Source: Bacteroidales bacterium
GTDB taxonomy: Bacteria > Bacteroidota > Bacteroidia > Bacteroidales > UBA932
Assembly: GCA_017550025.1 (NCBI GenBank)
Contig: JAFYLU010000061.1
Span: 1-34,130 of the forward strand
Length of the DNA stretch: 34,130 nt
Direction of reading: 5' to 3'
A program made the translations under genes and the position numbers. The notes under the pieces are model-generated. The model saw nothing but the letters and a program-made list of their open reading frames with translations, had not been told where the DNA came from and made no database searches. The stretch's first letter is position 1; every line of letters starts with the position of its first letter. This document shows, in pieces, positions 5,362 to 27,870 of the stretch.

Positions 5362-6528
5362 ATGAAAGATATGACATTTGAAGAAAGACTGGAATGGCTC
5401 AAGGCAGAGCATGAGGCCCTCATCACAAAGAAGAACGAGCCGATTGAGGGTAACGGCGTTTATGAGCGCTATCAGAACCCTATCCTTACAGGTGACCATT
5501 CTCCTCTTTTCTGGAGATATGACCTCAACAAGGAGACTAATCCATATCTTATGGAGCGTTACGGCATCCATGCCGCTCTCAATTCAGGAGCCATCAAGTG
5601 GAACGGCAAGTACGTTCTCGTTGTACGCGTAGAGGGTGCTGACCGCAAGTCGTTCTTTGCAGTTGCAGAGAGCCCTAACGGTGTGGACAACTTCCGTTTC
5701 TGGGACCGTCCGATCACTATGCCTGAATATGGCGAGCCTGCTACAAATGTATATGACATGCGTCTTACAGCTCATGAGGACGGCTGGATCTACGGTATCT
5801 TCTGCGTTGAGCGCAAGGATCCGAATGCAGCTCCGGGCGACCTCTCTTCAGCAGTTGCAGCTGCCGGTATCGCACGTACAAAGGACCTCGTGAACTGGGA
5901 GCGTCTTCCGGACCTCGAGTCTACTTCACAGCAGCGTAACGTGGTGCTCCATCCGGAGTTCGTAGACGGCAAGTATGCTCTCTATACACGTCCGCAGGAT
6001 GGATTCATCGACGCTGGTAGCGGTGGTGGAATCGGCTGGGCTCTCGTTGACACAATGGAGAAGGCAGTGGTTACAGAAGAGAAGATCATCAACCACAGAT
6101 TCTATCACACAATCAAGGAAGTGAAGAACGGTGAAGGTCCGCACCCAATCAAGACTGACCGCGGCTGGCTCCACCTTGCTCACGGTGTACGTGGATGTGC
6201 TTCAGGTCTCCGTTATGTTCTCTATATGTACATGACTTCTCTTGAGGATCCTACAAAGATGATCGCTGATCCTGCAGGCTTCTTCATGGTACCGGAGGGT
6301 GAGGAGTACATCGGTGATGTCATGAACGTGCTCTTTACAAACGGATGGATTGCAGACGAGGACGGCAAGGTGTTCATCTACTATGCATCAAGCGACACAC
6401 GCATGCATGTTGCGACATCTACAGTAGACCGTCTTGTAGACTACTGTATGAACACAGAGCCGGACGCACTCACAACAGGTGAGTCTGTCAAGAGACTCAA
6501 CCGCCTCATCGACCGCAACCTCCTCTAA
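5362..6528 (+). CDS. GH130 4-O-beta-D-mannosyl-D-glucose phosphorylase
   Basis: Inverting phosphorylase that splits Man-beta-1,4-Glc with inorganic phosphate to mannose 1-phosphate and glucose. The 388-residue protein has no signal peptide and should be cytoplasmic. It closely matches my memory of the characterised Bacteroides fragilis enzyme (GH130_1): shared blocks include [59 protein letters not shown] and [11 protein letters not shown]. The Asp in NVYDMRL corresponds to the family's catalytic position. In the known mannan pathway a cellobiose 2-epimerase turns mannobiose into mannosylglucose for this enzyme; no epimerase is present here. The 63-nt gap before it shows no clear promoter but contains the direct repeat ATGCATC spaced by 5 nt just ahead of the start. 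Confidence 0.93.
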
Positions 6529-6542
6529 AGATTCTTGCGATT

Positions 6543-6589
6543 CCTCGGCATGCCGGCGGCATTTTCATGCCTTACCGTGCCTGCCGGGG
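6543..6589 (+). other. Structured intergenic segment between GH130 and the symporter gene
   Basis: Arms CCTCGGCA (6543-6550) and TGCCGGGG (6582-6589) can pair over 8 bp with one wobble, and the interior contains a small GGCA/TGCC hairpin. No T-run follows, so this is not a standard terminator. It could be an mRNA-processing or stabilising structure between two genes of one transcript. Low confidence in function. Confidence 0.35.
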
Positions 6590-6617
6590 ATCCGTTAACT
6601 TTAATAACGACTGAATA

Positions 6618-8060
6618 ATGACCAATGCAAATCCAGCAGGAACCTTCCAGAAGGCTCCTTTAAGCCAGAAGATAGGATACGGTTTCGGTGACATGTCGTC
6701 TTCGATGTTCTGGAAGATCTTCACCGCATACCTTCCGTTCTTCTATTCAACCATCTTTGGCCTCAGCCTTGTAGATGCTACATTCCTTATGCTTGTGACC
6801 AGAATCTGGGATGCTGTTTCCGATCCTATGATGGGTATCATTGCTGACCGTACGCAGACCCGCTGGGGAAAGTACAGGCCATATCTGCTCTGGATCTCGA
6901 TACCGTTTGCTGTAGTGGGTGTGCTTCTTTTCACAACACCTGAACTCGGCTACGCAGGCAAGCGTATATGGGCTTATGTGACATATATCATGATGATGAC
7001 AGTCTATACGGCCATCAATGTACCTTATGGTGCGATGCTTGGCGTCATGACTGCAGATTCAGACGAAAAGACAGTGTTCTCTTCTTTCAGAATGTTCTTC
7101 GCATATGCCGGCAGCTTCATCGTGCTGGCTGGATGGGAGCCTCTCTGCAAGATGTTCAACAAGATGCAGGGCATCGAGACATCTGTAAACGATCCTTCTT
7201 CATGGCAGTATGCCATGATCGTTGTGGCAGTATGCTGCTTCCTCCTCTTCCTCCTCTGCTTCAAGATGACACGCGAGACAGTGAAGAGCCTTCCGAAGGA
7301 GACATCTGTGGGATCAGACCTCAAGACCCTTTTCAGAAACGCTCCGTGGTGGATTCTTCTGGGTGGAGTGCTTTTCTTCAACCTTTTCAATGCAGCCCGT
7401 TACACAGCAGGTCCTTTCTTCTTTGCAAGTGTCATCGGAGATGGTGCCCAGCTCAAGATATTCTCGCTTGAGTTCCTCTTCTATGCAGGTATCTTCTTCG
7501 CTGTAGGTGAGGTAGCAAACATGGCAGGTGTGGCCATGACTCCGTGGATCACCAGGAAGATCGGAAAAAAGAGCACATTCATGTACTCTCTCATCCTTCT
7601 CATTGTATTGAGCAGCATTTTCTTCTTCATTCCTCTTACATCAGGCGGATATTGGCTCATGATGCTCATGCAGGTTGTAATATCTGTGATCACAGGTATC
7701 GTGTCTCCTCTCGTATGGAGTATGTATGCTGACATCGCCGACTATGCAGAGCTCAAGTTCAACACTGCTTCTACAGGACTCATCTTCTCGTCATCATCGA
7801 TGGCACAGAAGTTCGGTGGAGCTATCGGAGGTTCTGCAGTTACTGCCATCCTCGCTGCTGTAGGTTACAGCACAGAGGCCGGAGCTGTCCAGACCGAGAC
7901 AGCCTTGACATGGGTGAGAGCATTGATGAGCTTTGTCCCTGCAGCAGTCGCAGCCGCTTCTCTGTTCTTCATCACCATCTATCCTCTTACAACGAAGAGG
8001 ATGAAGGAGATTCAGGCGGAGCTTGAGGTCAGACGAGGAGCACAACCATCTGAAAAATAA
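6618..8060 (+). CDS. GPH-family (MFS) cation:oligosaccharide symporter
   Basis: Inner-membrane transporter of the glycoside-pentoside-hexuronide:cation symporter family, inferred to carry mannobiose, mannosylglucose or related disaccharides into the cytoplasm. The 480-residue protein has about 12 hydrophobic segments. The GPH landmark region lies at residues 62-91: RIWDAVSDPMMG followed by ADRTQTRWGKYRPYLLW. A second conserved patch near residue 370 reads MYADIADYAELKF, also typical of the family. Length fits (about 450-500). It lies between the GH130 and GH36 genes, as in other Bacteroidales mannan loci where transporter and phosphorylase are neighbours. Substrate assignment rests on context only. 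Confidence 0.9.
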   Translation: MTNANPAGTFQKAPLSQKIGYGFGDMSSSMFWKIFTAYLPFFYSTIFGLSLVDATFLMLVTRIWDAVSDPMMGIIADRTQTRWGKYRPYLLWISIPFAVVGVLLFTTPELGYAGKRIWAYVTYIMMMTVYTAINVPYGAMLGVMTADSDEKTVFSSFRMFFAYAGSFIVLAGWEPLCKMFNKMQGIETSVNDPSSWQYAMIVVAVCCFLLFLLCFKMTRETVKSLPKETSVGSDLKTLFRNAPWWILLGGVLFFNLFNAARYTAGPFFFASVIGDGAQLKIFSLEFLFYAGIFFAVGEVANMAGVAMTPWITRKIGKKSTFMYSLILLIVLSSIFFFIPLTSGGYWLMMLMQVVISVITGIVSPLVWSMYADIADYAELKFNTASTGLIFSSSSMAQKFGGAIGGSAVTAILAAVGYSTEAGAVQTETALTWVRALMSFVPAAVAAASLFFITIYPLTTKRMKEIQAELEVRRGAQPSEK

Positions 8061-8072
8061 ATTGTACTATGG

Positions 8073-8107
8073 ATATGCGCGCTGTCTCTGACGGTGCGCA
8101 TATTTTT
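8073..8107 (+). terminator. Terminator-like hairpin between symporter and GH36 genes
   Basis: ATATGCGC (8073-8080) pairs perfectly with GCGCATAT (8096-8103) over a 15-nt loop and is followed by TTTT. The GH36 start codon is only 15 nt downstream, leaving no room for a new promoter, so partial termination or mRNA-end stabilisation with read-through is more likely than a hard stop. Confidence 0.6.
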
Positions 8108-8122
8108 CAATAGGTCGGAATC

Positions 8123-10318
8123 ATGAGGAAATCATTATCTGTAATTTCACTGTTGGCTTTGGCCATATCGTCATTTGCGCAGGTTCATGTCGCTACACCG
8201 AATGTGGAAATGGTGCTTAAGGCGGAAAAAGGCAGCAGGTTGGAGATAATGTATTTTGGCAGCAGGCTTTCCGAAGCGGATGCTGCAAATATTGAGGCTG
8301 CCGGTGTGCCGGGACATAATGCATATCCTCCTTATGGGATGTCCTCTCACTCCGAGGCTGCATTGGAAGTCACTCATGCAGATGGAAACATGTCAACGGT
8401 TCTTGTTGTTGAAGGTGTTTCTTCTGAAAACGATGTTTTGGCAGAGATCACCCGTATCAGGCTGAAAGACACAGTGTATCCTTTTTATGTTACGGTTTGT
8501 TACCGTGCATACAAGGAGGTGGATATGATTGAGACATGGACAGAAATCGAGAATCTTGAAAAGAAGCCGGTGCGGCTGACCCGGTTTGATTCAGGCTATC
8601 TTCCTGTCAGGCTTGGAGATGCATGGCTGAGCCATCTGCACGGTACATGGTCTAACGAAGGTATGCTTGTGCAGGAGCCGCTTGCCAGGGGTATGAGAGT
8701 GATAAAGAACAAGGATGGTACCCGTAATTCGCATACCGACCATGCCGAGGTGATGATTTCCCTTGACGGAAAGCCGCAGGAAAATCATGGCCGTGTCATC
8801 GGTGCCGCTCTCTGCTATAGCGGAAACTATGAGATCAGGATCGATACGAGAGATACAGACTATCATGAATTCTTTGCGGGAATAAATCCTGACAATTCGG
8901 CTTTCACTCTTTCTCATAAGGAAGTCTTCAGGACCCCTGAACTGGCTCTTACATATTCGGATGAAGGATTGAGCGGAGTCAGCCGGAACTTTCACAAATG
9001 GGGTCGCAAATATAAGCTGGCTCATGGAGATAAACTTCGCAAGATCCTCCTGAACAGCTGGGAAGGTGTGTATTTCGACATCAATGAGCCGGGTATGGAC
9101 CAGATGATGGCGGATATTGCATCTATGGGTGGCGAACTTTTCGTGATGGATGACGGCTGGTTCGGGGTCAAGTATCCCCGCCTTACCGACAACTGTGCTC
9201 TCGGCGACTGGAAGGTCGACAGAAATAAACTGCCGAACGGAATCGGCTGGCTTGTGGAACAGGCCCATAAGCATGGGATAAAGTTCGGCATCTGGATTGA
9301 ACCGGAAATGACCAACACCACAAGCGAACTTTATGAGAAGCATCCTGAATGGGTGATCAAAGCTCCTGAAAGAGAGGTGGTTACCGGCAGGGGAGGCACT
9401 CAGCTGGTTCTTGATCTGGGCAATCCTGAAGTTCAGGATTTTGTCTTCAGCATAGTGGATGACCTTCTGACCGAGAATCCGGAAATCGACTATATCAAGT
9501 GGGATGCGAACATGCCTGTGTCCAACCATGGCTCACAGCATCTTTCCATGGACAGGCAGAGCCATCTCTATATAGACTATCATCGTGGATTCGCTTCCGT
9601 ATGTGACAGGATCCGTGCAAAATATCCTGACATAACGATTCAGGCATGTGCTTCAGGAGGAGGACGAGCCAACTGGGGTGTACTTCCTTGGTTTGACGAA
9701 TTCTGGGTAAGCGACAACACTGATGCCCTTCAGCGCATATATATGCAGTGGGGAACCTCCTATTTCTTCCCTGCAATTGCCATGGCATCACATATAAGCG
9801 CTGTTCCGAACCATATGGTCTTCCGTACCACATCACTCAAATACCGCATAGATGTAGCTATGAGCGGCCGTCTGGGCATGGAGATTCAGCCCGCTAACAT
9901 GACTGAAGAGGAAAAGGCTTTGTGCCGTAATGCTATTTCCGAATATAAGGAAATACGTCCTGTGGTCCAGATGGGTGAAATCTATCGTCTAGTGTCTCCT
10001 TATGACGGGCGCGACATGGCCTCTCTCATGTATGTGTCGGAAGACAAGTCGGAAGCGGTTTTCTACTGGTGGAAGACCGAAACCTTCCATGACGCTCATC
10101 TTCCTCGAGTGAGGATGGCTGGTCTGGATCCTTCCAGGATGTACAGGATACGCGAACTCAACAGGATTGACAATGTTGCCCTTCCTTATGAAGGATTGTC
10201 TTTCAGCGGACGGTTTCTGATGGAAAACGGACTTGAGATTCCACTCAGGCATAAGGTGGACTATCACAAGCAGGATGACTGGAGCAGCCGCATACTCCAT
10301 CTGGTTTGTGATGAATGA
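8123..10318 (+). CDS. GH36 alpha-galactosidase, secreted
   Basis: Removes alpha-1,6-linked galactose side chains, here probably from galactomannan or galactoglucomannan oligosaccharides. The 731-residue protein begins with a cleavable signal peptide (ends near SSFAQ, residue 20) and no lipobox, so a periplasmic location is likely. The order is an N-terminal beta-sandwich (about 21-290), a TIM barrel (about 300-640) and a C-terminal sandwich. Landmarks: LLNSWEGVYFDINE, FVMDDGWFG, GIWIEPEM, the nucleophile Asp461 in YIKWDANMP, the CASGGGR motif near 509-515, and the acid/base Asp531 in WVSDNTDA. Length fits bacterial GH36 (about 700-740). It lies 35 nt upstream of the GH94 gene. Family assignment is firm; galactomannan as the in vivo target is inferred from neighbours. 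Confidence 0.93.
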   Translation: MRKSLSVISLLALAISSFAQVHVATPNVEMVLKAEKGSRLEIMYFGSRLSEADAANIEAAGVPGHNAYPPYGMSSHSEAALEVTHADGNMSTVLVVEGVSSENDVLAEITRIRLKDTVYPFYVTVCYRAYKEVDMIETWTEIENLEKKPVRLTRFDSGYLPVRLGDAWLSHLHGTWSNEGMLVQEPLARGMRVIKNKDGTRNSHTDHAEVMISLDGKPQENHGRVIGAALCYSGNYEIRIDTRDTDYHEFFAGINPDNSAFTLSHKEVFRTPELALTYSDEGLSGVSRNFHKWGRKYKLAHGDKLRKILLNSWEGVYFDINEPGMDQMMADIASMGGELFVMDDGWFGVKYPRLTDNCALGDWKVDRNKLPNGIGWLVEQAHKHGIKFGIWIEPEMTNTTSELYEKHPEWVIKAPEREVVTGRGGTQLVLDLGNPEVQDFVFSIVDDLLTENPEIDYIKWDANMPVSNHGSQHLSMDRQSHLYIDYHRGFASVCDRIRAKYPDITIQACASGGGRANWGVLPWFDEFWVSDNTDALQRIYMQWGTSYFFPAIAMASHISAVPNHMVFRTTSLKYRIDVAMSGRLGMEIQPANMTEEEKALCRNAISEYKEIRPVVQMGEIYRLVSPYDGRDMASLMYVSEDKSEAVFYWWKTETFHDAHLPRVRMAGLDPSRMYRIRELNRIDNVALPYEGLSFSGRFLMENGLEIPLRHKVDYHKQDDWSSRILHLVCDE

Positions 10319-17623: not shown

Positions 17624-18097
17624 TTATTTTGCCCAGTTCTTATATGGGTTCTTCATGAGCATAGAGTTGTAGTACTTCACATCTCCGGTAACCTCCTCAC
17701 CGAGCCATTCAGGCTTAACGAATGCCTCGTCTTCAGAAGAAAGCTCAACCTCAGCCACAACAAGGCCTTCGTTGTCACCGTAGAATTCGTCTACCTCATA
17801 AGTGTGGTCGCCAGCCTCAACAAGGTAGCGTGTCTTGTCGATTACTCCTGGCTCGCAGATCTGAAGAAGATCCTGAACTTCTGCTATAGGGATCTCCTTC
17901 TCCCACTCGAAACGGCTTGCACCGCTTGCCGAACCTATACCCTTGATGGTAATGAATCCTTTTTCACCCTTCACGCGTACTCGTACTGTGCGCTCCGGAA
18001 CTGAACTGAGGTATCCCTGTGTGATTCGGGTTGCCTTCTTTGCAAACGGCTTGAAGTCGCCTGCAACCAAAAATTTTCTTTCGATTTCCTGTGCCAT
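17624..18097 (-). CDS. Short CYTH-domain triphosphate tunnel metalloenzyme (probable inorganic triphosphatase)
   Basis: CYTH/TTM enzymes bind triphosphate groups in a beta-barrel tunnel with a divalent metal. The short bacterial forms of about 155-160 residues (for example those of Nitrosomonas europaea and Clostridium thermocellum) hydrolyse inorganic tripolyphosphate. I chose the ATG at 18097, giving 157 residues starting MAQEIERKFLV, the classic ExExK-type opening; an in-frame ATG six codons upstream overlaps the preceding gene. Further tunnel residues appear in TVRVRVKGEKGFITIKG, EWEKEIP, YEVDEFYGDNEGLVVAEVEL and the final VKYYNS. There is no signal peptide, so it is cytoplasmic. It starts 4 nt after the stop of the CYTH-like gene. 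Exact substrate (tripolyphosphate, a nucleotide triphosphate, or thiamine triphosphate) cannot be decided here. Confidence 0.88.
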   Translation of the reverse strand: MAQEIERKFLVAGDFKPFAKKATRITQGYLSSVPERTVRVRVKGEKGFITIKGIGSASGASRFEWEKEIPIAEVQDLLQICEPGVIDKTRYLVEAGDHTYEVDEFYGDNEGLVVAEVELSSEDEAFVKPEWLGEEVTGDVKYYNSMLMKNPYKNWAK

Positions 18098-18101
18098 GAT
18101 A

Positions 18102-18740
18102 TTATTCGTTTGCAAGTGGTTTGTCAGACATACCGATCACGCGCTTGATAGCCTGGAGATAGTTGATGTTCTCGACACCCTCAAGACCGCAGTCCGCGAT
18201 TGTCTTCTTGATATCCTCGATTTCGGTTGACTCCGAGTTGATGGTCACGACCTTTGCACCGTTGATAAGGACGTTGCCGACCTCGCAGATAGTGTTGTTT
18301 ACCATATAGCCGAAACGCTGCTTGTGTACGCGTACAGCTGCAAGGTCAGGGTTAGCCTTTACCATTGCGATGAACTCATCGTAAGTGTACTCGTCCTTGT
18401 CAAGAGCAGGCATCTCTACCATGAATGCAGGGAATACCTCATTCTCAAGTACAGTGCGTGAGATAGGGAACTCACCCTTCATGAGAGGATTCCACTGCTC
18501 GAGACCGTCTACTGTCTGGACATATGTCTTGATGTCCATCTTTCCGTTGCGGATCTTTGTGTTGTTGATGTCGTTCTTGTTTGAGATGATGTAGATCTCG
18601 TCGCTTTCGCGCTCCCAAACCTTTTCAGGTACAGGTACTGAAAGACGAGCCATTCTCTTGTGTGCCTCGCAGAAGCACTGTCCGAAAGAGCGGAACTCGA
18701 AGCGTGGCTTCGAGATTTCACCGATTTTTAATTCTGCCAT
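18102..18740 (-). CDS. CYTH-like 212-residue protein of unknown function
   Basis: No standard family name comes to mind, but the layout resembles a diverged CYTH/TTM fold. It opens with a strand of alternating charged residues (PRFEFRSFG), followed by SDEIYIIS, NTKIRNGKMDIKTYVQ (where CYTH proteins have their arginine-lysine strands), then LAAVRVHKQRFGYMVNN, TICEVGNVLI and a late acidic strand TINSESTEIEDIKKTIADCGL, as in the C-terminal half of CYTH domains. There is no signal peptide. It begins 18 nt after the lamin-tail gene and ends 4 nt before the true CYTH gene, so the two are almost certainly translated together and may form a pair. The fold suggestion is inference at moderate strength; catalytic competence is unclear because the ExExK motif is not intact. 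Confidence 0.7.
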   Translation of the reverse strand: MAELKIGEISKPRFEFRSFGQCFCEAHKRMARLSVPVPEKVWERESDEIYIISNKNDINNTKIRNGKMDIKTYVQTVDGLEQWNPLMKGEFPISRTVLENEVFPAFMVEMPALDKDEYTYDEFIAMVKANPDLAAVRVHKQRFGYMVNNTICEVGNVLINGAKVVTINSESTEIEDIKKTIADCGLEGVENINYLQAIKRVIGMSDKPLANE

Positions 18741-18758
18741 GATAGTATTTATTATAGA

Positions 18759-19847
18759 TTATTCGTTTTCGATTACACCTGTCTTTTCACCGTTTGCGGC
18801 TCCTGGAGTCGGAGCGGCATAAGCCCACTCGCCTGTTCCGTTCGGAACGCGTGAGAATGATGCTTCCTTATTCTCGGCAAGAGGTTCCTCACCGAACGGA
18901 TCCGCGTCTGTACCACGTACAAACTTGTCAACTACTTTTCCGGATGCATCAACGAGCTCGAACTTCACACCCTTCTTTGCAGAAAGACCTGCGTTGAATC
19001 CAAGTTCAGGATCAGTAATGTCAGCACCGAGTACGAGATATGCTCCGGCTGCCAGCTTCTTTCCTTCCGGTGCAGTCCAGCAGATATTGTATTTGCCTGC
19101 AACGTCTGTTGCGTCAGCAGCATACTTTCTGATTGTCCAACCCTTAAGAGAAGCCTCTGCTTCACCTGCGTTGAAGAGCTCGATGAACTTGTTGCCCTCA
19201 TATGCCTTGTTTCCGCAAAGCTCGTTGAATACGACCTTGGCTGTCTTCTGTACAGGAACATCACCGTTTCCTACGAGAGCTGGATCGACAGTAGCACCTT
19301 CACCGTTGTTCGCTGCACCTGGAGTCGCATTAGGTGTGATCATGAATGCTCCTGTTCCGTCAGGAACGCGGCTCCATGATCCCTTATTGTTGTCAAGTCC
19401 CTGATCGCCCCATGCGCTGCCTTTCTCGCCACGCTGGAATGTATCAAGCTTTGTTCCGTCTGGAGCGTAAAGCTCAACGATTACGCTCTTCTTTGCAGAG
19501 AATCCTGAAGAGAATCCGTCAGGAGTGGTTCCCTTTGCTCCGATGATGGCAAAGTAGCCGTTTGCAGGAATCTTCTGTCCCTTCGCACCAGTCCATGCAA
19601 GCTCCTCGTCTTTGTTGATGGTAACTCCAGCGAGATCGATCTCCTGGCTGCCGGTGTTATAAAGCTCCCAGAACTTTTCATTATCCTCACCTGCTCCGGA
19701 AAGCTCGTTGAGAACGAGTTTTGAGTAGTCATATACGATTTCCGGTTCTGGTTCCGGTACGAGTGCGTTAGGATTCTGTTCGTCCTTTACACAAGATACA
19801 GCAGCCATTGATGCGAGTGCTGCAAGCGCTAAAAATATCTTTTTCAT
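18759..19847 (-). CDS. Lipoprotein with two lamin-tail (LTD) domains
   Basis: A 362-residue lipoprotein (MAAVSC, Cys19) built from two similar lamin-tail domains at about 44-180 and 203-355. Each begins with a LVLNELSG or VVFNELCG strand, has a WELYNTG or IELFNAG strand, an SAKK(S/G)V strand and a tail reading WSRVPDGTGAF or FSRVPNGTGEW before TPGAAN. In bacteria, LTD domains are accessory beta-sandwiches of exported proteins, often attached to nucleases, phosphatases or other hydrolases; here they stand alone with no catalytic domain. It lies 51 nt after the phosphate porin gene, suggesting a surface or periplasmic binding protein that works with the porin. Function and ligand are not established. 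Confidence 0.85.
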   Translation of the reverse strand: MKKIFLALAALASMAAVSCVKDEQNPNALVPEPEPEIVYDYSKLVLNELSGAGEDNEKFWELYNTGSQEIDLAGVTINKDEELAWTGAKGQKIPANGYFAIIGAKGTTPDGFSSGFSAKKSVIVELYAPDGTKLDTFQRGEKGSAWGDQGLDNNKGSWSRVPDGTGAFMITPNATPGAANNGEGATVDPALVGNGDVPVQKTAKVVFNELCGNKAYEGNKFIELFNAGEAEASLKGWTIRKYAADATDVAGKYNICWTAPEGKKLAAGAYLVLGADITDPELGFNAGLSAKKGVKFELVDASGKVVDKFVRGTDADPFGEEPLAENKEASFSRVPNGTGEWAYAAPTPGAANGEKTGVIENE

Positions 19848-19898: not shown

Positions 19899-21326
19899 TT
19901 AGAATGCAACCTGGAAACGAAGTGCAAGCATCTGGTAATCAACTCCTCCCTTTCCTGTAGGAGCTACTACCTTGTTTGGATCCTTGGTAGGCTTGCCGTT
20001 GAGGTCATATCCTACATAGCTCTTGCCCTTGGCGTTTGCATAGCGGTCATTGTTGTTGTACTGCCAGTTGAGGACAATCTTCACATTCTTGCTTGGATAG
20101 TAGTTGAGACCAATGGTGTAAGCCTCGCCGCTACCGCCGAAGATGTTGGTGTCAGCTACCTTGCGTGAGAAGAGCTTACCTGTGTTGAAGTCAGCGAATT
20201 CATAGCGGAAAGCCACTTCGAGGTTGCCCCACTTGTGCTCTGAAGTAGTTCTGGTATATTTTGCACCGTCCTCATCATAGTTCTGTGTACCACCGAAGAG
20301 AAGCCAGCTTGCCTGTGCATACCATCCCTCTGCCCACTGTGTAGGAAGCGGATTGACCTTCTGGTCGAGATACATGCCTCGTGCGATATATGCTGCCTCA
20401 TAGCGGAGCTGCTTCCAGTGACCTGCAAGCTCGAGAGTCCATGCAAGCTCGTGGTCAAGTCCCTTTACATCGTCTGTGTCAAGATACTTCTTGCGGTTGA
20501 TGCTGGTTGAGTTGCGTGAGCTGTAGCGGCCGATATAATATCCGTCTGTGCTGGTAAGCTTTGGCTCGCGGTATGAAACGGCACCACCAATGTGGAGTGA
20601 TGAAGTTGTAGACTTGTGAAGCGGACGGAAAACGAGTTTACCTGTATATGAAAGTCCTTCGTTATATCCGTAGTCCTTGTTTCCGTCTTCCATATATGTC
20701 AGCTCCTCTGAACTGCTGAGCTCTGGTCCGAACACACCTGCAGAAGCCCAGAACCAATCCTTCGAGTATCTTGCATTGATACCGAGGTGACGTGATGGAG
20801 CAAGGTAAGTGACCATGGCGCGCTCCATGAACATGAGGTAACGTGATGTTGTGTTTCTCTGGATAGAGAAGTTCTCCTTGAAGTTACCGGCCTTGATTTC
20901 GAGACCCTCTACTCCGGTGAATGCTACATATGCGTCCTTGAGTTCCGGAGTACCGCTTGTCCAGTCGGTGTCAAGCTCACCATACCAGTTCTTGTCGAGC
21001 TGTGCCTTTACGGCGAAACGGGTACGGCGGAGATTCATTCCGTTACCGATGTGGCTTGTGTTCCATTTGCCGTCGATTTCCTTTGCGCAGAAATCAGGTG
21101 CACCGAAGTATACGGCAGCATCTGCCTGCACTCGCACGTCAAACCACATCTTGTAGTTTGCGTTCTTGTTCTGGAATACGAGGATACCATCCTGCATCTT
21201 TGCTTCTACAGGAACTGATTCCACTTTCTGACCATACTGGTTTACATCAGCCTCTTCAGCTTTCTGAGCGACTGCTGTGATTGACGCAGAAAGCGCCAAA
21301 AGCGAAATTAATAATACCTTTTTCAT
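19899..21326 (-). CDS. Phosphate-selective porin of the OprO/OprP family
   Basis: Outer-membrane beta-barrel of the family named for the Pseudomonas phosphate and polyphosphate porins OprP and OprO. The 475-residue protein has a signal peptide (ends near AVAQ, residue 21), a short polar lead, and then amphipathic strands to the C-terminus, which ends in phenylalanine (LRFQVAF) as barrel assembly requires. Characteristic pieces are MNLRRTRFAVKAQLDKNWYG, LKDAYVAF, IKAGNFKENFSIQRNTTSRY and MFMERA. It lies 30 nt after the membrane-HTH gene. Many Bacteroidota members of this family have untested specificity, but here the PhoU-like and CYTH genes support phosphate or polyphosphate. Confidence 0.88.
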   Translation of the reverse strand: MKKVLLISLLALSASITAVAQKAEEADVNQYGQKVESVPVEAKMQDGILVFQNKNANYKMWFDVRVQADAAVYFGAPDFCAKEIDGKWNTSHIGNGMNLRRTRFAVKAQLDKNWYGELDTDWTSGTPELKDAYVAFTGVEGLEIKAGNFKENFSIQRNTTSRYLMFMERAMVTYLAPSRHLGINARYSKDWFWASAGVFGPELSSSEELTYMEDGNKDYGYNEGLSYTGKLVFRPLHKSTTSSLHIGGAVSYREPKLTSTDGYYIGRYSSRNSTSINRKKYLDTDDVKGLDHELAWTLELAGHWKQLRYEAAYIARGMYLDQKVNPLPTQWAEGWYAQASWLLFGGTQNYDEDGAKYTRTTSEHKWGNLEVAFRYEFADFNTGKLFSRKVADTNIFGGSGEAYTIGLNYYPSKNVKIVLNWQYNNNDRYANAKGKSYVGYDLNGKPTKDPNKVVAPTGKGGVDYQMLALRFQVAF

Positions 21327-21356: not shown

Positions 21357-22982
21357 TTATATGGATTTTATATAATTCACGAGATTGTCTCCCTTTGACA
21401 GACCGAGCTTCTGCCTGAGTCTGTAGCGGCTTATCTCGACGCTTTTGGGAGTTATATTCATCAGGGTAGCTATATATTTGGATGAGAAGCCAAGCCTAAG
21501 AAGTGTTGCGAGCCGTTTTTCCTGCTGGGTAAGGTTAGGGAAATTCTCGGAGAGCTTTGAGTTGAAATCCTCGTGGAGGGATTCTGCCTGGGCGTAGAAA
21601 TACTGTGAGTCTACGTCTCGGTCGTATGAAAGGCGCTGCGTTATTGCCGAACCCAGTTCGGCTATAAGCTTCTCCTTGTCCTTCGGGTCGTCGGTTTTGG
21701 CAAGCAGCTTTACCTTGTCATTGAGAGATTCCAGAAACTCTTTCTGTTCCACTATGCTGAGAGCCACATTCATCACTTCCTGTTTCTTCTGCTCGATGGA
21801 ATTATGAAGAGCCTGGTTCTCTGAAAGAACCACCTTCAGTTCCATGTCATTCAGGGCCCTGCTGTTTTCATATATCTGCTGCTGCTGCGAGTACACCAGC
21901 CTTTCGGTTGCATCTCTCAATGCCTTCTGGCGGCGGACATAACCGGAGAACAGCAGGACAGCCAATATGAGCATTGCTGCTGACATCACGGTGAAGTCAA
22001 CCATCTCCTCTTCATTGTGTCCGGACAGATATATGATTATATATGCCGTCAGGAATGATAATACAGGAGCAGCCGGCAGAGCGATTATTTCCTTTATGTA
22101 TTCTTCTGTTTCCACAATACGGTTCTTCTGCACAACTTCTGTTCCGGCAATGGCGGCGAATATAAGCGATCCTGCAGAAATAGGAGCCGGAGAAAGATGC
22201 AGAAGTGCGGTTGTCGACTCAAATGAAAAGAACAATAGAGTCAGGGATGTTGAAAATCCTACTGTCAGGACCGACCATATTGAAAAATCGCTGAACCTTC
22301 CTGCACTTTCATCGCTTTCTGTCCTCATGAATGAAGACAGGCCTGTGATAATGACAGCCATCAGAGGTATCATTACATATGATGCCCATTCTGGAGCTTC
22401 TGTCATTTCTGCTATCGACGTCAGGAATCCTCCCCAGTTAAGTCCTGCAGAAAGGGATGTTATTATGATCCCGGCGATGACCGCGTAACGAAGATAATAT
22501 GACAATGTTATCAGATGCACATGGCACTTGTCCAGCGTGTGCCGGCATGCGAGGCGGATCAGTGCGGAAAGTACGAAGGCCATGACCGGAGCGGCGAGGA
22601 AAGATACAGGCATTAGATTCTCTGACCTTTGTCCGGAGATGATTACAAAAGCTTCCAGAGCGCCCCAGAAAGCATATATGACCGATCCTGTCACCGAAAA
22701 GAACTTCAGGGTCAGCAACGTGATCAAAGTCGCGATGATGCAGATCAGCAGATGCTTGCAGTCTACGGTGATATGCCCGAAACATCCGGACATACCTGCC
22801 TCTATGTCACCATGTATGCTGAATGCTGCGGCTCCGAGGAGAGAAAGTGCCACGATGGTCTTGAACCAGACCCTTTTCAATACGCATGTAGGGACATATA
22901 TTCCGAACAATGTCGGATACTCGTTGGTGAAAAACCACAGAGCAGCGACACACAGGAACAATATGAGACATGTAGCAGTCAT
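21357..22982 (-). CDS. Polytopic membrane protein (PiT-like?) fused to coiled coil and LuxR/GerE-type HTH
   Basis: A 541-residue protein in three parts. Residues 1-350 hold roughly 10-11 hydrophobic segments. Residues about 352-430 form a charged coiled coil (RQKALRDATERLVYSQQQQ onward). Residues about 478-541 are a LuxR/GerE helix-turn-helix: LTQQEKRLATLLRLGFSSKY, then IATLMNITPKSVEISRYRLR and QKLGL, as found at the ends of Bacteroidota sensor-regulators. The N-terminus, FFTNEYPTLFGIYVPTCVLK then GAAAFSIHGDIEAGMSG, follows the spacing of the PiT phosphate-transporter signature (xxNDxxNxxGxxVxxxxL, then a GxxxxxTIxxG stretch), with the Asp changed to Glu and no intact second motif. Its start codon directly abuts the stop of the DUF47 gene, the usual partner of PiT. 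I infer a phosphate-sensing membrane regulator; PiT ancestry is a hypothesis. Confidence 0.75.
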   Translation of the reverse strand: MTATCLILFLCVAALWFFTNEYPTLFGIYVPTCVLKRVWFKTIVALSLLGAAAFSIHGDIEAGMSGCFGHITVDCKHLLICIIATLITLLTLKFFSVTGSVIYAFWGALEAFVIISGQRSENLMPVSFLAAPVMAFVLSALIRLACRHTLDKCHVHLITLSYYLRYAVIAGIIITSLSAGLNWGGFLTSIAEMTEAPEWASYVMIPLMAVIITGLSSFMRTESDESAGRFSDFSIWSVLTVGFSTSLTLLFFSFESTTALLHLSPAPISAGSLIFAAIAGTEVVQKNRIVETEEYIKEIIALPAAPVLSFLTAYIIIYLSGHNEEEMVDFTVMSAAMLILAVLLFSGYVRRQKALRDATERLVYSQQQQIYENSRALNDMELKVVLSENQALHNSIEQKKQEVMNVALSIVEQKEFLESLNDKVKLLAKTDDPKDKEKLIAELGSAITQRLSYDRDVDSQYFYAQAESLHEDFNSKLSENFPNLTQQEKRLATLLRLGFSSKYIATLMNITPKSVEISRYRLRQKLGLSKGDNLVNYIKSI

Positions 22983-23630
22983 TTACATAGTCCTTCTAAT
23001 GGCCATTACGGCAAGTTGGTCTGCAACATTCTCTGCAGCCTTGGACAGATCCTCGATGTGAAGTGCGAAATATCTCAGGTGGAATTTTTCACTGAGCTTC
23101 AGGTTCGTCATATTGTGGAAGACCGTACGCTTGATCGTCTGGGAATATCTGACGGCTTCCTTTTCATAATAATATGTCCTGCTTATCTTGTCCTGAATGC
23201 TTTCAGGGGTCTTGAAATAAGCTTTGCATGCTGGGACTACCGCTTCCACGGCCAAGGTGGAGAATTCGGTCAGCTTCATGAATTCAGGATTCAGTTCGGA
23301 AGGTATGAAAGGAGTCTCTATCTCAAACTGGAAGAGACTGTCATAAAGAATTGCAGTGATGTTCCTTGTCTTCTCCAGAAGACGCATTATGTCTCCTCTT
23401 GAACGGACCAGAGCTGTCTGGGTGTAAAGAGCATTCTCTATTTCTCTACGCAGAACCTCTGTCTCACTTTCAAGGTCAGACATCTTCTTCAGATTTCCAT
23501 TGAAATCGTTGTTGTTTGAATAGAGGTAATTCCTGACGCCGTCCTTGAATACAAGAACCGACTGATCCATCAGATCGAAATATCTGTCGATATCATCAAT
23601 GAGCTTGTCAGCTTTCTTTTTTCCGAACAT
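22983..23630 (-). CDS. PhoU-like DUF47-family protein
   Basis: A 215-residue all-helical protein of the DUF47/PhoU-like family (usual length about 205-220), cytoplasmic, with no signal. DUF47 proteins are normally encoded next to PiT low-affinity phosphate transporters and are thought to modulate them. Visible features are the helical N-terminus with FDLMDQSVLVFKDGVRNYL, a central ETEVLRREIENAL helix, RGDIMRLLEKTRNI, and the C-terminal metal-binding-type motif HIEDLSKAAENVADQL. It is the first gene after a good promoter and its TAA is followed immediately by the ATG of the membrane-HTH gene, indicating translational coupling. No ordinary PiT gene is in the window, so its partner is either that membrane-HTH protein or the DASS transporter. 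Confidence 0.87.
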   Translation of the reverse strand: MFGKKKADKLIDDIDRYFDLMDQSVLVFKDGVRNYLYSNNNDFNGNLKKMSDLESETEVLRREIENALYTQTALVRSRGDIMRLLEKTRNITAILYDSLFQFEIETPFIPSELNPEFMKLTEFSTLAVEAVVPACKAYFKTPESIQDKISRTYYYEKEAVRYSQTIKRTVFHNMTNLKLSEKFHLRYFALHIEDLSKAAENVADQLAVMAIRRTM

Positions 23631-23652: not shown

Positions 23653-23680
23653 ACTATACAAAGTTATCATATTTTGTCAA
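23653..23680 (-). promoter_or_regulatory. Promoter for the phosphate-related operon
   Basis: On the minus strand TAACTTTG (23659-23666) matches the Bacteroidota -7 box TAnnTTTG exactly, about 30 nt before the DUF47 start. The same segment also contains TTGACA (23675-23680) and TATAGT (23653-23658) with a 16-nt spacer, a sigma-70-like arrangement. Either reading places transcription start just upstream of DUF47. Motif-based. Confidence 0.6.
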
Positions 23681-23704
23681 TAAATTATTTGTAGAGGAGT
23701 GCGA

Positions 23705-23783: not shown

Positions 23784-23870
23784 GTTGATGGAAACAGAAC
23801 CCCTGTGAGAGGTTTTGTAGAGGTTTTTATATCCTTTATGAGAGGTGTTTCGGGGTGTTTCAAGGCTTTT

Positions 23871-25613
23871 TTATTCCTTCTGGCAGCGGACAGGCAAGCC
23901 GTATGCGCGCAATGTGTGATTGTCTGCTGTGACATATCCGTCCGAGGTAAGGCTGATATGATGTGCCCTGTTTGTCCAGGCCTGGTTCGTGCATGACCAG
24001 CAGCATCCGGTATATCCTACGCTCAGCAGTGGACGGCCATCAAAGAAAATTCCGTCGGCAAACGGATACCAGATAGACTCACTGTCTCCCATATCTCCGG
24101 AAAAATCAATTCCCGGCAGGATGGCTTCAAATGGGAAATAGCGGACAGAGGTTGAATTCAATGCTTTTGCCCATATTCCGTCTTTACCTCCGTCCGGAAC
24201 ACGCCATCCTGGAGGACATGGATCGTAAATGGTCTTTTCTGACTGCCACAGGTCAAGCTCCATCTTGTCGTGATTCCAGTCTCCGGCTGTAGGGGTGCAG
24301 ATGAATGTTGTAGGATTCTGTATGGCATACTCTACGCCGGTATTGCTGTTGCGTTCCACAGGAGAAGGCCATGAAATGGTGGATTTTGCGACAACACCTT
24401 CATGTTTGTTAACATTTGAAGAGCCGAGGAACGGATCTTTTCTTCCCCATTGGTATAACAGGCCGTGTGCTCCTGCATCTCCCGGTGTCGCAGATGTCGC
24501 TCCGAGATTACGGTCCATCATTGTTCCTGCATCGTGATAGTAGACCTGCTCCTGTGGAGTGTCAGTCATCCATATATGCCATGACCAAAGAACCTTTCCT
24601 TCTCCGCTTCTGGCTGCAATCACTGCATTGCCCTCCTTGATTCTTTCCAAGGTCTTGAAAGCGATATATCCGTCCTTATGACAGAATTCTTTTATGAGTT
24701 CCCTTCGCTCGGGAGCGAGATCCGATCCGAAAGATTCCCACAGGATCTCGCAATAGTCCAGATCCTCAAGCTTCTCGTCAGAATTTCCCTTGACGGCCTT
24801 GAATCTATAGGTTCCCGGTTCTGATACAATGTAGCAGTTAGCGGTTCCTGATGCAGAAAGGTCGGTGGCTGAAGACATGTCGATAGCTGACTCTTCCGAG
24901 TATGAGTTGATTATGAGGAAATCCTTTATGTCGCTTGTCAAATAGTCATTTTCTGTTCCGAAGAAGGTGCAGTAATAATATCTGGCACCTATTGACAGGT
25001 CTGTGACTTTTACATGGATTCCGCCTTCAGGACTGATTTCAGACACTTTCGCCTTGTTGCACTGTCCGTTTGCGATGTCGTCGGGAACGGATGAATACAT
25101 CACTCCGATTTCAATACTTTGCAGATCCTCTTCAGAAAATCCGCTGATTTCCCCGTCAAACTCCACTACAGGGTCAGAGTCAGCTACAATGGTTTCATCA
25201 GTCACATTCAGTTCGATTTCTGCACTGGCAGTCGTGAATTCCTTTGTCTGGCTTCTGTCTGTCTTTTCCCAGACATCCGTCACGATGCAATAATGATACA
25301 CCGTTCCGGGCCGCAGTCCTTTGAGCATAAAGACGAAATTCCCTGTCATGCTGTCGGGAGGCAAAGATGCCTTTTGGGCTTCCTCTATGCTAAAGTTTTC
25401 ATTGTCAGAATAATATATGGCTATCTCACTGTGCGGGACATCGTATATGGATATCTCGGCAGTTCCGGAGAACGTAGCGGTAGTCGCTGTGACCTTGCCC
25501 AAAGAGACTGTGACAGGGCCGACATGGGATATGTTGTAATCCGGCTCCTTGCAGCAGCCTGACAGAAGCAGGACGATACAGGAAATTATATATATAAACT
25601 GATGACCTTTCAT
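23871..25613 (-). CDS. Fibronectin-III / FISUMP-like surface lipoprotein
   Basis: A 580-residue lipoprotein (LLLSGC, Cys20). Residues about 28-132 form an FnIII-like domain (TVSLGKVTATTATFSGTAEI, ending LRPGTVYHYCIVTDVWE). A second similar beta domain spans about 133-236 (VTDLSIGARYYYCTFFG). Next comes a stretch starting SGTANCYIVSEPGTYRFKAV, common in Bacteroidales surface lipoproteins, and then a FISUMP/DUF1566-like region to the end, with MDRNLGATSATPGDAGAHGL, LYQWGRKDPF, DPCPPGWRVPDGG and a final YGLPVRCQKE. Such proteins are thought to be adhesive or structural; no enzyme motif is seen. It starts 1 nt after the S46 peptidase stop and is the last gene of that three-gene unit. Confidence 0.82.
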   Translation of the reverse strand: MKGHQFIYIISCIVLLLSGCCKEPDYNISHVGPVTVSLGKVTATTATFSGTAEISIYDVPHSEIAIYYSDNENFSIEEAQKASLPPDSMTGNFVFMLKGLRPGTVYHYCIVTDVWEKTDRSQTKEFTTASAEIELNVTDETIVADSDPVVEFDGEISGFSEEDLQSIEIGVMYSSVPDDIANGQCNKAKVSEISPEGGIHVKVTDLSIGARYYYCTFFGTENDYLTSDIKDFLIINSYSEESAIDMSSATDLSASGTANCYIVSEPGTYRFKAVKGNSDEKLEDLDYCEILWESFGSDLAPERRELIKEFCHKDGYIAFKTLERIKEGNAVIAARSGEGKVLWSWHIWMTDTPQEQVYYHDAGTMMDRNLGATSATPGDAGAHGLLYQWGRKDPFLGSSNVNKHEGVVAKSTISWPSPVERNSNTGVEYAIQNPTTFICTPTAGDWNHDKMELDLWQSEKTIYDPCPPGWRVPDGGKDGIWAKALNSTSVRYFPFEAILPGIDFSGDMGDSESIWYPFADGIFFDGRPLLSVGYTGCCWSCTNQAWTNRAHHISLTSDGYVTADNHTLRAYGLPVRCQKE

Positions 25614-25614
25614 T

Positions 25615-27870
25615 TTATATTCCTAATTCTTCGATTATCCAGCTCATTCCGGCATAGCGGTCAATGGTCCAGAGGATGAATCTGATGTCTACGCAGACGC
25701 ATTTGTTGTAGCCTGGAGTGCAGTATACATCGCTTGCGAGAGACTCCTTGTTGCCGTCGAATGCAAGACCGATGAGCTCGCCTTTTGAGTTAAGGACAGG
25801 GCTTCCGGAGTTGCCGCCGGTGATGTCGTTGTCTGTGAGGAAGTTCACATACATCTGCGAACCGTTCTCTCCGAATCCCCATCTTCCCCAGTCTCCCTTT
25901 CTGTAAAGGAGGTACTGCCTGTCATTCAATGTGAAGTCGAAGTCTCCCGGCTGGTATTTTTCAAGAATGCCTGCAGGTGTGGTCTTCCAGTCGCAGATCA
26001 CACCGTCGTAAGGCTCATATCCGCCGACTGTGCCGTATGTGATTCGCATTGTGGAATTCGCGTCAGGATACTGCACTATGCCCTTGTCCATTCGCATCTG
26101 ATAGAGGGCGTGAGTGAATTCCTTGTTGAGTGTAGAACGGCTGACTTTTCCTTCTGCCGCAAGAGTGGCTTCGTTGAATCTTGTGACCTTCACTTCCTGA
26201 AGGAATCGGAAAAGAGGGTCTGTGAGATATTCTGTCAAGGTGTGTTCCTCGGAGATGAAACGCTCAAGTCTCTGCATGTCGGTGAAGAAGCTGTTCTCCC
26301 AGATGCTGTCTGCAAGGCCCAGGTAGTCAGTTCCGTTTACGGAAGTATACCTGTCGTAAAGTTCCTTCTGGTATTCTCCGATGTATGCATGGTCTATATT
26401 GCTGTAATATTCCTCGACTGCAAACCTGAACAGATCCTTTTCCACCCTCATGTCAATGCCTTCGTATTCCTTGAGGATGGCTGACATGTGCTTTCCATAC
26501 TTGTTGCCGCAGAATCTGAATGTGTTGCAGAACTCTGTCTCTGCCGGATCCGGACCGTTCTGGAGCTCAATCGACTTCTTCGGAGTCATTCCCTGGCTGG
26601 TCATCACTGCAGTGCGGAATGCATTTATCTTTGTGCATGCACGTGAGATTCGTGTTCCGCGCACGATGGTCTCGCGATAATAGTTCACATTTCTTTCCGG
26701 TTCTGCCACAGACAGATATTTGGTCTTGAGGTCATTCAGGAGGCTGCCCCAACGCTCCTTTCTTTCAGGAGAAGCCTCTATCCACTCCTGAAGTTCCTTT
26801 TCTCCTTCCTCCTTCTTTCCGATGACACCGAACCTGTCGATACACTCCACTTCTCCGCTGTAAAGCTCCTGGATATTGCTCAATGTGAAGAAATAGTCCG
26901 AATACTTAAGACGGATTTCAGGGTCTGCATCCATCCATTTCTTGATTATCTCCATCTGCTTTCCCCTGATGCTGTTGCATACAGGCTGCCTTACGGTCTG
27001 ATAGAAGTTCACCTCGTATGAATTGCTGTAGCGGTTTGTACTGCCAGGGTAGCCTATGACCATAGTGTAGTCTCCGGCCTTGTATCCGCCAAGTGAAATC
27101 TTCAGTTTAGCCTTCGGCTTCATAGGGACATTCTCCTTCGAATATTCTGCAGGGGAACCGTCCGGAGCAGTGTACACGCGGTACATGGCGAAGTCACATT
27201 TGTGCTGTGGCCATTCCCAGTTGTCTATGTAGCCTCCGAATGCAGCGGAAGACACCGGGGGAGCGGCTACGAGACGAACATCTGAATATACCTCATAAAG
27301 GGCCATATAATATTTTGAACCGTCCCACATCGATGCCAGCCACGCCTCAAGTCCGGTTTCCTTCTTGTATCTGGTTTCGAGAATATAGCTGAGCTTTCTC
27401 ATTCCCATAGGTCTTGCCTGCACATCGTGCTCCTTCTTCAGGACCTCTACCTCTTCTGTTATGTCGAGGACTCTTTTCAGGAAGAACACTCTCTTTCCCT
27501 TGATATTGACTTCCTCGTCGGAACGCATCGCCCAGAAACCTTCCTCAAGATAGTTATGCTCCGCTGTACTCAAGGCATGTACATCCCCGTATGCGCAGTG
27601 ATGGTTGGTTATGAGCAGACCCTTGTCGGAAATCATGCTTCCGGTGCATCCGAATTCCATTGACACCACTGCATCGGCTACATCAGCTCCTTCCGCATCG
27701 GCATTATATATTTCATTTGCAGAAAGCTGCAGGCCTCTTTCCTGCATTTTCTTCTCCAGAGCGGCATCGATGGCATGAATCATCCACATTCCTTCGTCCG
27801 CCATAGCGCTATAGCTGCCGATCAGGGCAGCTATAGCAACAGACATTATCTTTCTGATATTCTTCATCAT
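25615..27870 (-). CDS. S46-family dipeptidyl-peptidase, DPP7-type
   Basis: Serine exopeptidase that removes dipeptides from peptide N-termini in the periplasm, feeding amino-acid-using Bacteroidota. The 751-residue protein has a signal peptide (cut near AMADEG, residue 24) and the usual S46 length (about 700-750). Landmarks: the His region TNHHCAYG (residues 89-95) and the nucleophile Ser688 in GGNSGSP. The residue 18 positions later is Gly706 in AFDGN, the DPP7 state; DPP11 enzymes have Arg there and favour acidic P1 residues. This predicts preference for hydrophobic or broad P1 residues. The start is 2 nt after the stop of the Fe-S membrane gene, and the gene ends 1 nt before the lipoprotein start, so the three are co-transcribed. 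Confidence 0.93.
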   Translation of the reverse strand: MMKNIRKIMSVAIAALIGSYSAMADEGMWMIHAIDAALEKKMQERGLQLSANEIYNADAEGADVADAVVSMEFGCTGSMISDKGLLITNHHCAYGDVHALSTAEHNYLEEGFWAMRSDEEVNIKGKRVFFLKRVLDITEEVEVLKKEHDVQARPMGMRKLSYILETRYKKETGLEAWLASMWDGSKYYMALYEVYSDVRLVAAPPVSSAAFGGYIDNWEWPQHKCDFAMYRVYTAPDGSPAEYSKENVPMKPKAKLKISLGGYKAGDYTMVIGYPGSTNRYSNSYEVNFYQTVRQPVCNSIRGKQMEIIKKWMDADPEIRLKYSDYFFTLSNIQELYSGEVECIDRFGVIGKKEEGEKELQEWIEASPERKERWGSLLNDLKTKYLSVAEPERNVNYYRETIVRGTRISRACTKINAFRTAVMTSQGMTPKKSIELQNGPDPAETEFCNTFRFCGNKYGKHMSAILKEYEGIDMRVEKDLFRFAVEEYYSNIDHAYIGEYQKELYDRYTSVNGTDYLGLADSIWENSFFTDMQRLERFISEEHTLTEYLTDPLFRFLQEVKVTRFNEATLAAEGKVSRSTLNKEFTHALYQMRMDKGIVQYPDANSTMRITYGTVGGYEPYDGVICDWKTTPAGILEKYQPGDFDFTLNDRQYLLYRKGDWGRWGFGENGSQMYVNFLTDNDITGGNSGSPVLNSKGELIGLAFDGNKESLASDVYCTPGYNKCVCVDIRFILWTIDRYAGMSWIIEELGI

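Follow-up and report, generated by a model that had tools for sequence, protein, structure and literature searches.

The window, the whole 34,130-nucleotide stretch of Bacteroidales DNA analyzed here, carries on its reverse strand a gene whose product combines a PiT-like membrane domain, a charged, helical linker, and a LuxR-type helix-turn-helix (HTH) domain (Table 1). A Kyte-Doolittle scan placed 10 hydrophobic segments within residues 1 to 345, in line with the 10 to 11 membrane segments given in the original prediction, and the C-terminal GerE-type HTH that it described scored above the Pfam cut-off. The ATG of the fusion gene directly follows the stop codon of the DUF47 ORF, again as described. 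These observations confirm a fusion of membrane helices, as defined by hydropathy, and a DNA-binding domain on one chain, encoded directly after a DUF47 gene. No kinase domain appeared among the Pfam matches of the window protein up to an E value of 1, and the window protein alone matched neither PF01384 nor any membrane family in Pfam. Because the one-frame layout was kept in full-length relatives from other genomes, the fusion is not an artifact of assembly. Elsewhere in the window, positions 23871 to 25613 encode a lipoprotein-like protein with a weak match, below cut-off, to the purple-acid-phosphatase N-terminal domain; an S46 peptidase gene at positions 25615 to 27870 precedes it on the same strand.

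Table 1. Genes, protein domains, and upstream elements of the fusion operon in the window
Feature	Position	Strand	Evidence or remark
PiT-like membrane domain, helical linker, and LuxR-type HTH in one protein, 541 aa	21357..22982	-	ATG start
PiT-derived membrane domain (supported), residues 1-350, ~10 hydrophobic segments	21933..22982	-	hhalign (20-member alignment) and hydropathy
Linker, likely coiled coil, residues ~351-475	21558..21932	-	Sequence inspection; family-wide conservation
GerE/LuxR-type HTH, residues 483-530	21393..21536	-	PF00196, 29.3 bits (cut-off 23.5)
DUF47/PhoU_div (PitR-type) protein, directly upstream of fusion	22983..23630	-	PF01865, 31 bits (cut-off 24.4)
Porin_O_P outer-membrane porin	19899..21326	-	PF07396, 114.6 bits; adjoins fusion in relatives
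LTD-domain protein, same gene group	18759..19847	-	PF00932, 93 bits
ORF212, highly conserved	18102..18740	-	No named family found
CYTH/triphosphate-tunnel enzyme	17624..18115	-	PF01928, 55 bits
TAACTTTG, fits TAnnTTTG	23659..23666	-	
CTCTACA, candidate operator, promoter-proximal	23690..23696	-	
CTCTACA, candidate operator, distal	23816..23822	-	

We examined the ancestry of the membrane part with a family profile built on an alignment of 20 family members. Six of these 20 matched PF01384 (best E value, 4.7e-10), the sole family matched by more than one member, and a PDB search with the 20-member profile up to an E value of 10 returned only the phosphate transporter 6l85 (E = 1.2e-7), whose chain was matched once per half. 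Profile-profile comparison by hhalign aligned the membrane profile of the window's genus with 14 Bacteroidales PiTs (E = 6.5e-9, 240 columns; E = 5.9e-6 for a 12-member subset against true PiTs) and, colinearly over 299 columns, with the membrane domains of 15 intact fusions (E = 3.5e-21). One intact fusion domain alone was matched by the genus profile at 99.0% (E = 9e-18) and one ordinary PiT alone at only 5% (E = 0.0079), so that the link to ordinary PiTs depends on profile comparison and on the bridge formed by the intact fusions. Control comparisons with DASS, a cation-exchanger-like protein, and Na/Pi cotransporters, using one to three sequences each, gave probabilities of only 0.1 to 0.2%. 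The N and C halves of the profile also aligned with each other (E = 1.5e-5, 111 columns), and the internal repeat of PiTs is thus still detectable at the level of sequence. A lone PF01384 match in G008 (5e-4) came from an unrelated 394-residue protein with a long soluble part, presumably TMEM43-like, and was taken as noise; lone PF01384 matches near an E value of 1e-4 were therefore given no weight.

The alignment of the N terminus with the first PiT repeat, proposed from the window alone, was reproduced by profile comparison: TNEYPTLFG falls on ANDAANIFG, GDIEAGMSG falls on the following loop, and VIYAFWGALEAF aligns with the helix after PVS. The alteration claimed for the NDxxN motif was also borne out, with the first Asn kept, Asp replaced by Glu, and the last Asn replaced by Thr. 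None of the searches run gave a better match to another membrane family. Together, these comparisons support descent of the membrane domain from PiT, more strongly than the original prediction could have known.

We then looked for the same layout in other genomes. Scanning 295 Bacteroidales genomes with the genus profile yielded proteins of 577 to 624 residues that share this layout and have a clear PiT domain. When the intact domain was used for the scan, the PiT subfamily was located in 26 of the 295 sampled genomes, and 16 genomes from 11 families carry the fusion in frames of 581 to 653 residues, identical proteins being counted once. Each of these 16 frames was matched by the C-terminal profile; one of them (G866) has an in-frame stop. 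Four proteins of the fusion layout were covered by a Pfam scan: L210, L214, L213, and L228, the last from the sister genus. The first three, from other families than the window's, matched PF01384 at 170.6 to 217.5 bits, L228 had only its GerE match, and GerE was matched in all four, in L210 below the cut-off (22.3 versus 23.5 bits). Among 296 genomes from the phylum, the intact-domain scan gave 12 matches with no frame longer than 528 residues, and neither these 12 loci nor 19 further loci that were checked gave a match to the C-terminal profile; hence, this sample showed no fusion beyond the order. The membrane profile matched 85 of 400 genomes of the window's genus, 83 of them at an E value of 1e-18 or better. 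All 24 named relatives are Bacteroidales or Bacteroidia metagenome-assembled genomes or uncultured isolates, and the records of 14 name a ruminant host.

Several sequences are recorded here as separate observations. L219 (positions 6489 to 8306) holds a PiT-HTH fusion with an in-frame TAA inside the membrane domain and is either a pseudogene or a sequence error. L096, L097, L208, and L209 represent a PiT-like subfamily with a GSGT-type stretch in place of NDxxN, and PiTs of other Bacteroidota (L102 to L109) are longer at the C terminus by about 150 residues, a stretch unlike the HTH.

In a tree of HTH domains, the genus and 12 of the 16 order fusions, among them L181 from the sister genus, grouped against 10 other Bacteroidales HTHs (SH-aLRT, 99), and L189, L194, L202, and L203 stood apart. 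A tree of the membrane domain placed the genus and L181 on a long branch outside the PiTs and the intact subfamily, with long-branch attraction flagged; the attachment of the genus is unsure because of these long branches. From these trees, a single fusion event is likely for most members, if not proven for all.

The two sets of fusions differ in their transporter motifs, which we compared in 32 genus sequences and 16 order fusions; G866 was left out of this comparison, and both the motif table and the tree were made without the truncated L206 and without the pieces of L192, whose gene contains an in-frame stop. The roles of PiT-site residues were judged by motif conservation and not from structure. 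The functional-transporter motifs GANDxxN and PVS(T/S)(T/S)(H/Q) are eroded in the genus. The position of the motif 1 Asp is acidic in the 32 sequences (Asp in 19 and Glu in 13), and a Pro stands two places after it in 25, but the rest of GANDAAN is mostly lost, its first Asn being found in 7 of 32 sequences, the window included. Neither PVSTSQ nor PVSSTQ survives, and motif 2 (GANN) keeps its first Asn throughout (32 of 32). In the order fusions, motifs were retained in 13 to 16 of 16 sequences at most positions; L181 of the sister genus is already eroded, and L186 is partly changed.

We also compared the divergence of the two domains. At an HTH identity of 45 to 65%, the median identity of the membrane domain was 0.66 among order fusions versus 0.18 to 0.26 in the genus, and at an HTH identity of 35 to 45%, membrane identities were alike (0.22 and 0.19, respectively). 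Among 15 close genus pairs, which are not independent and do not include the window, omega was 0.09 to 0.18 for the membrane part and 0.02 to 0.08 for the linker and HTH, with synonymous change above 1 in more than half of the pairs. The eroded motifs, together with these omega values, indicate a membrane domain that has changed but is maintained in the genus. Since the motifs are eroded and the HTH has changed far less, the form found in the window's genus most likely acts as a receptor. Motif loss in one genus, with motifs mostly intact elsewhere, would fit the proposal of a transporter turned receptor.

The gene neighborhood was analyzed in 21 genus stretches and 17 order fusion stretches (the 16 fusions and the sister genus), using neighbor-gene profiles built from the genus with the window included. 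Wherever the order could be read in either set, it was the same: DUF47, fusion, porin, LTD, ORF212, and CYTH, with an extra ORF between LTD and ORF212 in L213, L221, and L226. DUF47 was present in 20 of 21 genus stretches, the contig of the 21st beginning just before the fusion, and in all 17 order stretches. The corresponding counts were 21 of 21 and 14 of 17 for the porin, 20 of 21 and 14 of 17 for LTD, 19 of 21 and 13 of 17 for ORF212, and 17 of 21 and 13 of 17 for CYTH. Several absent neighbors fall at contig ends; L227 is a seemingly true exception for the porin, with an LTD match on the other side. No porin was found in the three stretches with an HTH-less PiT of the same subfamily. One of these stretches, L229 (positions 5363 to 8120), combines such a solo PiT with DUF47, an ORF212-like gene, and CYTH, and lacks the HTH and the porin; this arrangement is possibly the prefusion state.

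Two downstream genes were characterized further. The CYTH protein of the window matched 2fbl, the structure of NE1496 (E = 7.1e-20), which we take to be the triphosphatase of Nitrosomonas europaea. An inorganic triphosphatase of the CYTH family from N. europaea is mentioned in the abstract of PMC3440374. ORF212 is more than 90% identical across the genus stretches compared, which exceeds its operon neighbors, and is 71 to 82% identical to 11 homologs from other Bacteroidales genomes and 24% identical to a 12th, that of L229. It matched no Pfam or NCBIfam family above cut-off, and the idea that it is a second CYTH protein was rejected (hhalign probability, 0.5%).

These results are best explained by a PiT-derived membrane one-component transcription regulator that probably controls its own operon. 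The original prediction of a transporter turned receptor stands in its PiT descent, its LuxR-type fusion, and its altered NDxxN motif; the sensor role is putative, as the best reading of these sequences. Phosphate is a putative ligand, suggested by the gene neighbors, and coupling to DUF47, dimerization, DNA binding, and the direction of control are likewise presumed. A PiT-derived regulator might instead sense a nonphosphate cue, such as another anion, the state of the membrane, or DUF47 binding only. The altered transporter motifs and the fast diversification of the membrane part inside the genus lend this alternative some weight, but the neighbors are phosphate themed (DUF47, Porin_O_P, and a CYTH triphosphatase-like protein), and we consider it unlikely, if still worth taking seriously.

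A regulatory candidate was found upstream of DUF47. We searched up to 260 bases before the DUF47 gene and took expected counts from random sequences with the same dinucleotide steps. CTCTACA occurs in 17 of 20 genus upstream regions (40 copies, one in reverse, versus 0.35 expected), L065, L078, and L079 having none, and in 9 of 17 order operons (11 copies, 2 in reverse, versus 0.33 expected). The relaxed form [ACT]CTACA occurs in all 17 order operons (40 copies, 5 in reverse, versus 5.4 expected). The result was replicated in 14 of 15 further nonidentical genus upstream regions (33 copies, 6 in reverse), a count restricted to regions of at least 200 bases that repeat no earlier one; the one shorter region, that of L143, has a single copy. 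Neighboring copies are spaced at multiples of about 10.75 to 11 bp (54 distances; 0 of 2,000 random sets as strong), with the caveat that motif and phasing statistics are inflated by related sequences, kinship being outside the model. The window has just two upstream copies, 126 bp apart, and as a whole holds CTCTACA in no excess (3 found versus 3.68 expected).

Comparison with other loci linked the element to the fusion. CTCTACA was absent from the three solo-PiT operons, one of which has [ACT]CTACA, and from all 17 upstream regions of DUF47 genes near ordinary PiTs (15 stretches), a control that is partly coding sequence; [ACT]CTACA was found in 2 of these 17. This control is imperfect because at least 5 of the 17 regions (L082 to L086) are mostly coding and because about 3 kb separate L080 from its PiT. 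Of 61 genomes, 10 had the exact double element CTCTACAN4CTCTA: 6 of 13 fusion-bearing genus genomes, always upstream of the fusion operon; 1 of the 24 genus genomes that lack the fusion (G029), at one place; and, from other families, 3 of 24 genomes (G069, G070, and G079), with one match each. A reversed control pattern was matched more often across the 61 genomes, so the double element is no genome-wide repeat. The window's genome lacks it because its two copies stand 126 bp apart. TAnnTTTG, the -7 promoter element consensus of Bacteroidota, lies 25 to 45 bases before the ATG in 27 of 37 regions, mostly downstream of the CTCTACA copies, a placement that favors an element of DNA over one of RNA; TAnnTTTG was not found in five copy-rich genus regions.

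To our reading, the CTCTACA repeats represent a candidate operator of the fused HTH, and such helically phased elements upstream of most fusion operons are new here. An operator-like element at the fusion operons would fit the earlier proposal of direct signaling to DNA. The element might instead be bound by another regulator, for example, one of the PhoB type, with the fused HTH acting elsewhere or nowhere. PhoB-type response regulators use 11-bp direct repeats, and the 11-bp spacing and mostly one-sided orientation of CTCTACA resemble Pho boxes. Against binding by such a regulator are the occurrence of the double element upstream of the operon in 6 of 13 fusion-bearing genus genomes versus 1 of 24 without the fusion and the lack of CTCTACA in the partly coding control regions and the solo-PiT operons, so that we regard this explanation as unlikely. 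A genome-wide Pho box was rejected, as the double element lies upstream of the fusion operon in six genomes and has single matches in G029 and in three genomes of other families, and the reversed control pattern was matched more often.

A further alternative is that the protein still transports phosphate or another anion, the HTH tail tuning its own synthesis, and thus is a transceptor with altered ion coupling. Purifying selection on the membrane part within the genus and the conserved acidic residue of motif 1 and first Asn of motif 2 are consistent with retained transport. So is the absence of another PiT from 17 of the 21 genus genomes that carry the fusion within the first 61 genomes, several of them incomplete; an ordinary PiT is also present in the other four. 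Yet the genus has lost the rest of the ND..N motif and both P-V-S-(S/T)-(S/T)-Q motifs, and its membrane domains have diverged far beyond those of order fusions at an HTH identity of 0.45 to 0.65. Moreover, the window's genome (84% complete) has three Na/Pi cotransporter loci and neither a PF01384 match nor PstC above cut-off, and phosphate uptake therefore need not depend on the fusion protein. We accordingly judge continued transport by the genus form to be improbable. Lastly, an origin of residues 1 to 350 from an unrelated membrane family, with a merely compositional likeness to PiTs, is very improbable and largely refuted: the window protein has no direct PF01384 match, the G008 match proved to be noise, and a single ordinary PiT is matched weakly, but the genus profile aligns with the intact fusions together and with one alone, 6l85 is the sole PDB match, the DASS, cation-exchanger-like, and Na/Pi cotransporter controls are negative, and the internal repeat is retained.

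Returning to the PiT-derived regulator of its own operon, we propose a mechanism in which phosphate or oligophosphate would enter through the neighboring porin and shift the PiT-like domain to another state, either directly or by way of its DUF47 partner. The helical linker would relay this state to paired HTHs at the inner membrane face. By binding the CTCTACA repeats that precede the DUF47 gene, these HTHs would set operon expression. The intact fusions of other Bacteroidales families may be transceptors, serving as both transporter and regulator. As a broader and tentative model, which could about as easily fail as hold, transceptors across the order might drive the porin/triphosphatase operon via phased CTCTACA elements, with the PitR-like partner reporting flux and the window's lineage having become a dedicated receptor.

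If this reading is true, intact PiT, intact fusion, and eroded fusion would mark natural stages on a path that leads from a transporter through a transceptor to a sensor, making the step from transporter to sensor directly testable. A PiT protein with its own DNA-binding domain would also collapse the sensing chain into one polypeptide and a candidate operator. On our reading of the field, PitR/PhoU-type proteins link importers to two-component systems, and both the way in which bacteria read phosphate flux through transporters and the passage from transporter state to gene control are unsettled.

The closest known relatives of the membrane domain are the PiT/PHO4 transporters (PF01384; TmPiT, 6l85), which share a homologous membrane domain, a detectable internal repeat, and an adjoining DUF47 gene; unlike them, the proteins of the window's genus have eroded signature motifs and an added C-terminal linker and HTH. 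The pairing of a PhoU_div (PF01865) gene with a PiT-type gene recalls PitR-PitA of Staphylococcus aureus (PMC13170248). In that study, PitR carries the PhoU_div domain and is present in 359 of 926 surveyed genomes, and PitA is found in 97.8% of PitR genomes, next to PitR in all but one case; for S. aureus, PitR is reported to govern phosphate-responsive two-component signaling (PMC13170248). Here, in contrast, the transporter-like protein itself bears the DNA-binding domain, and a two-component system would not be needed.

Among membrane-bound regulators, no PiT-LuxR fusion was reported among the matches listed from open-licence PMC papers. The C-terminal part resembles that of the Bacteroidota linker-LuxR proteins (BT3442, NF053779) at 21.8 bits, far under the 940-bit cut-off of that family, whose N terminus is different, and a genome scan gave many C-terminal-only matches. 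In overall layout, the window protein is like the Coriobacteriia LuxR proteins with 10 to 12 transmembrane segments, such as DadR, which also join a many-pass membrane domain to a LuxR-type HTH (PMC9734109). Passages of that work describe membrane LuxR proteins of Eggerthella as activators of metabolic genes and DadR-type regulators as shown to activate neighboring genes, and its main text does not use the word "transporter" (PMC9734109). The CbrA transceptor of Pseudomonas likewise uses a secondary-transporter domain as signaling input, as set out in PMC13022988, but CbrA joins an SLC5 domain to a histidine kinase, whereas the window protein joins PiT to an HTH. Transmembrane transcription regulators are described in passages of PMC10269533 as one-component proteins that act from the membrane and are frequent in Bacteroidota; in these passages, a PiT type is not named, and the main text does not use the term LuxR. 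We conclude that the system described here belongs with the membrane one-component regulators and transceptors, as a variant of these known systems.
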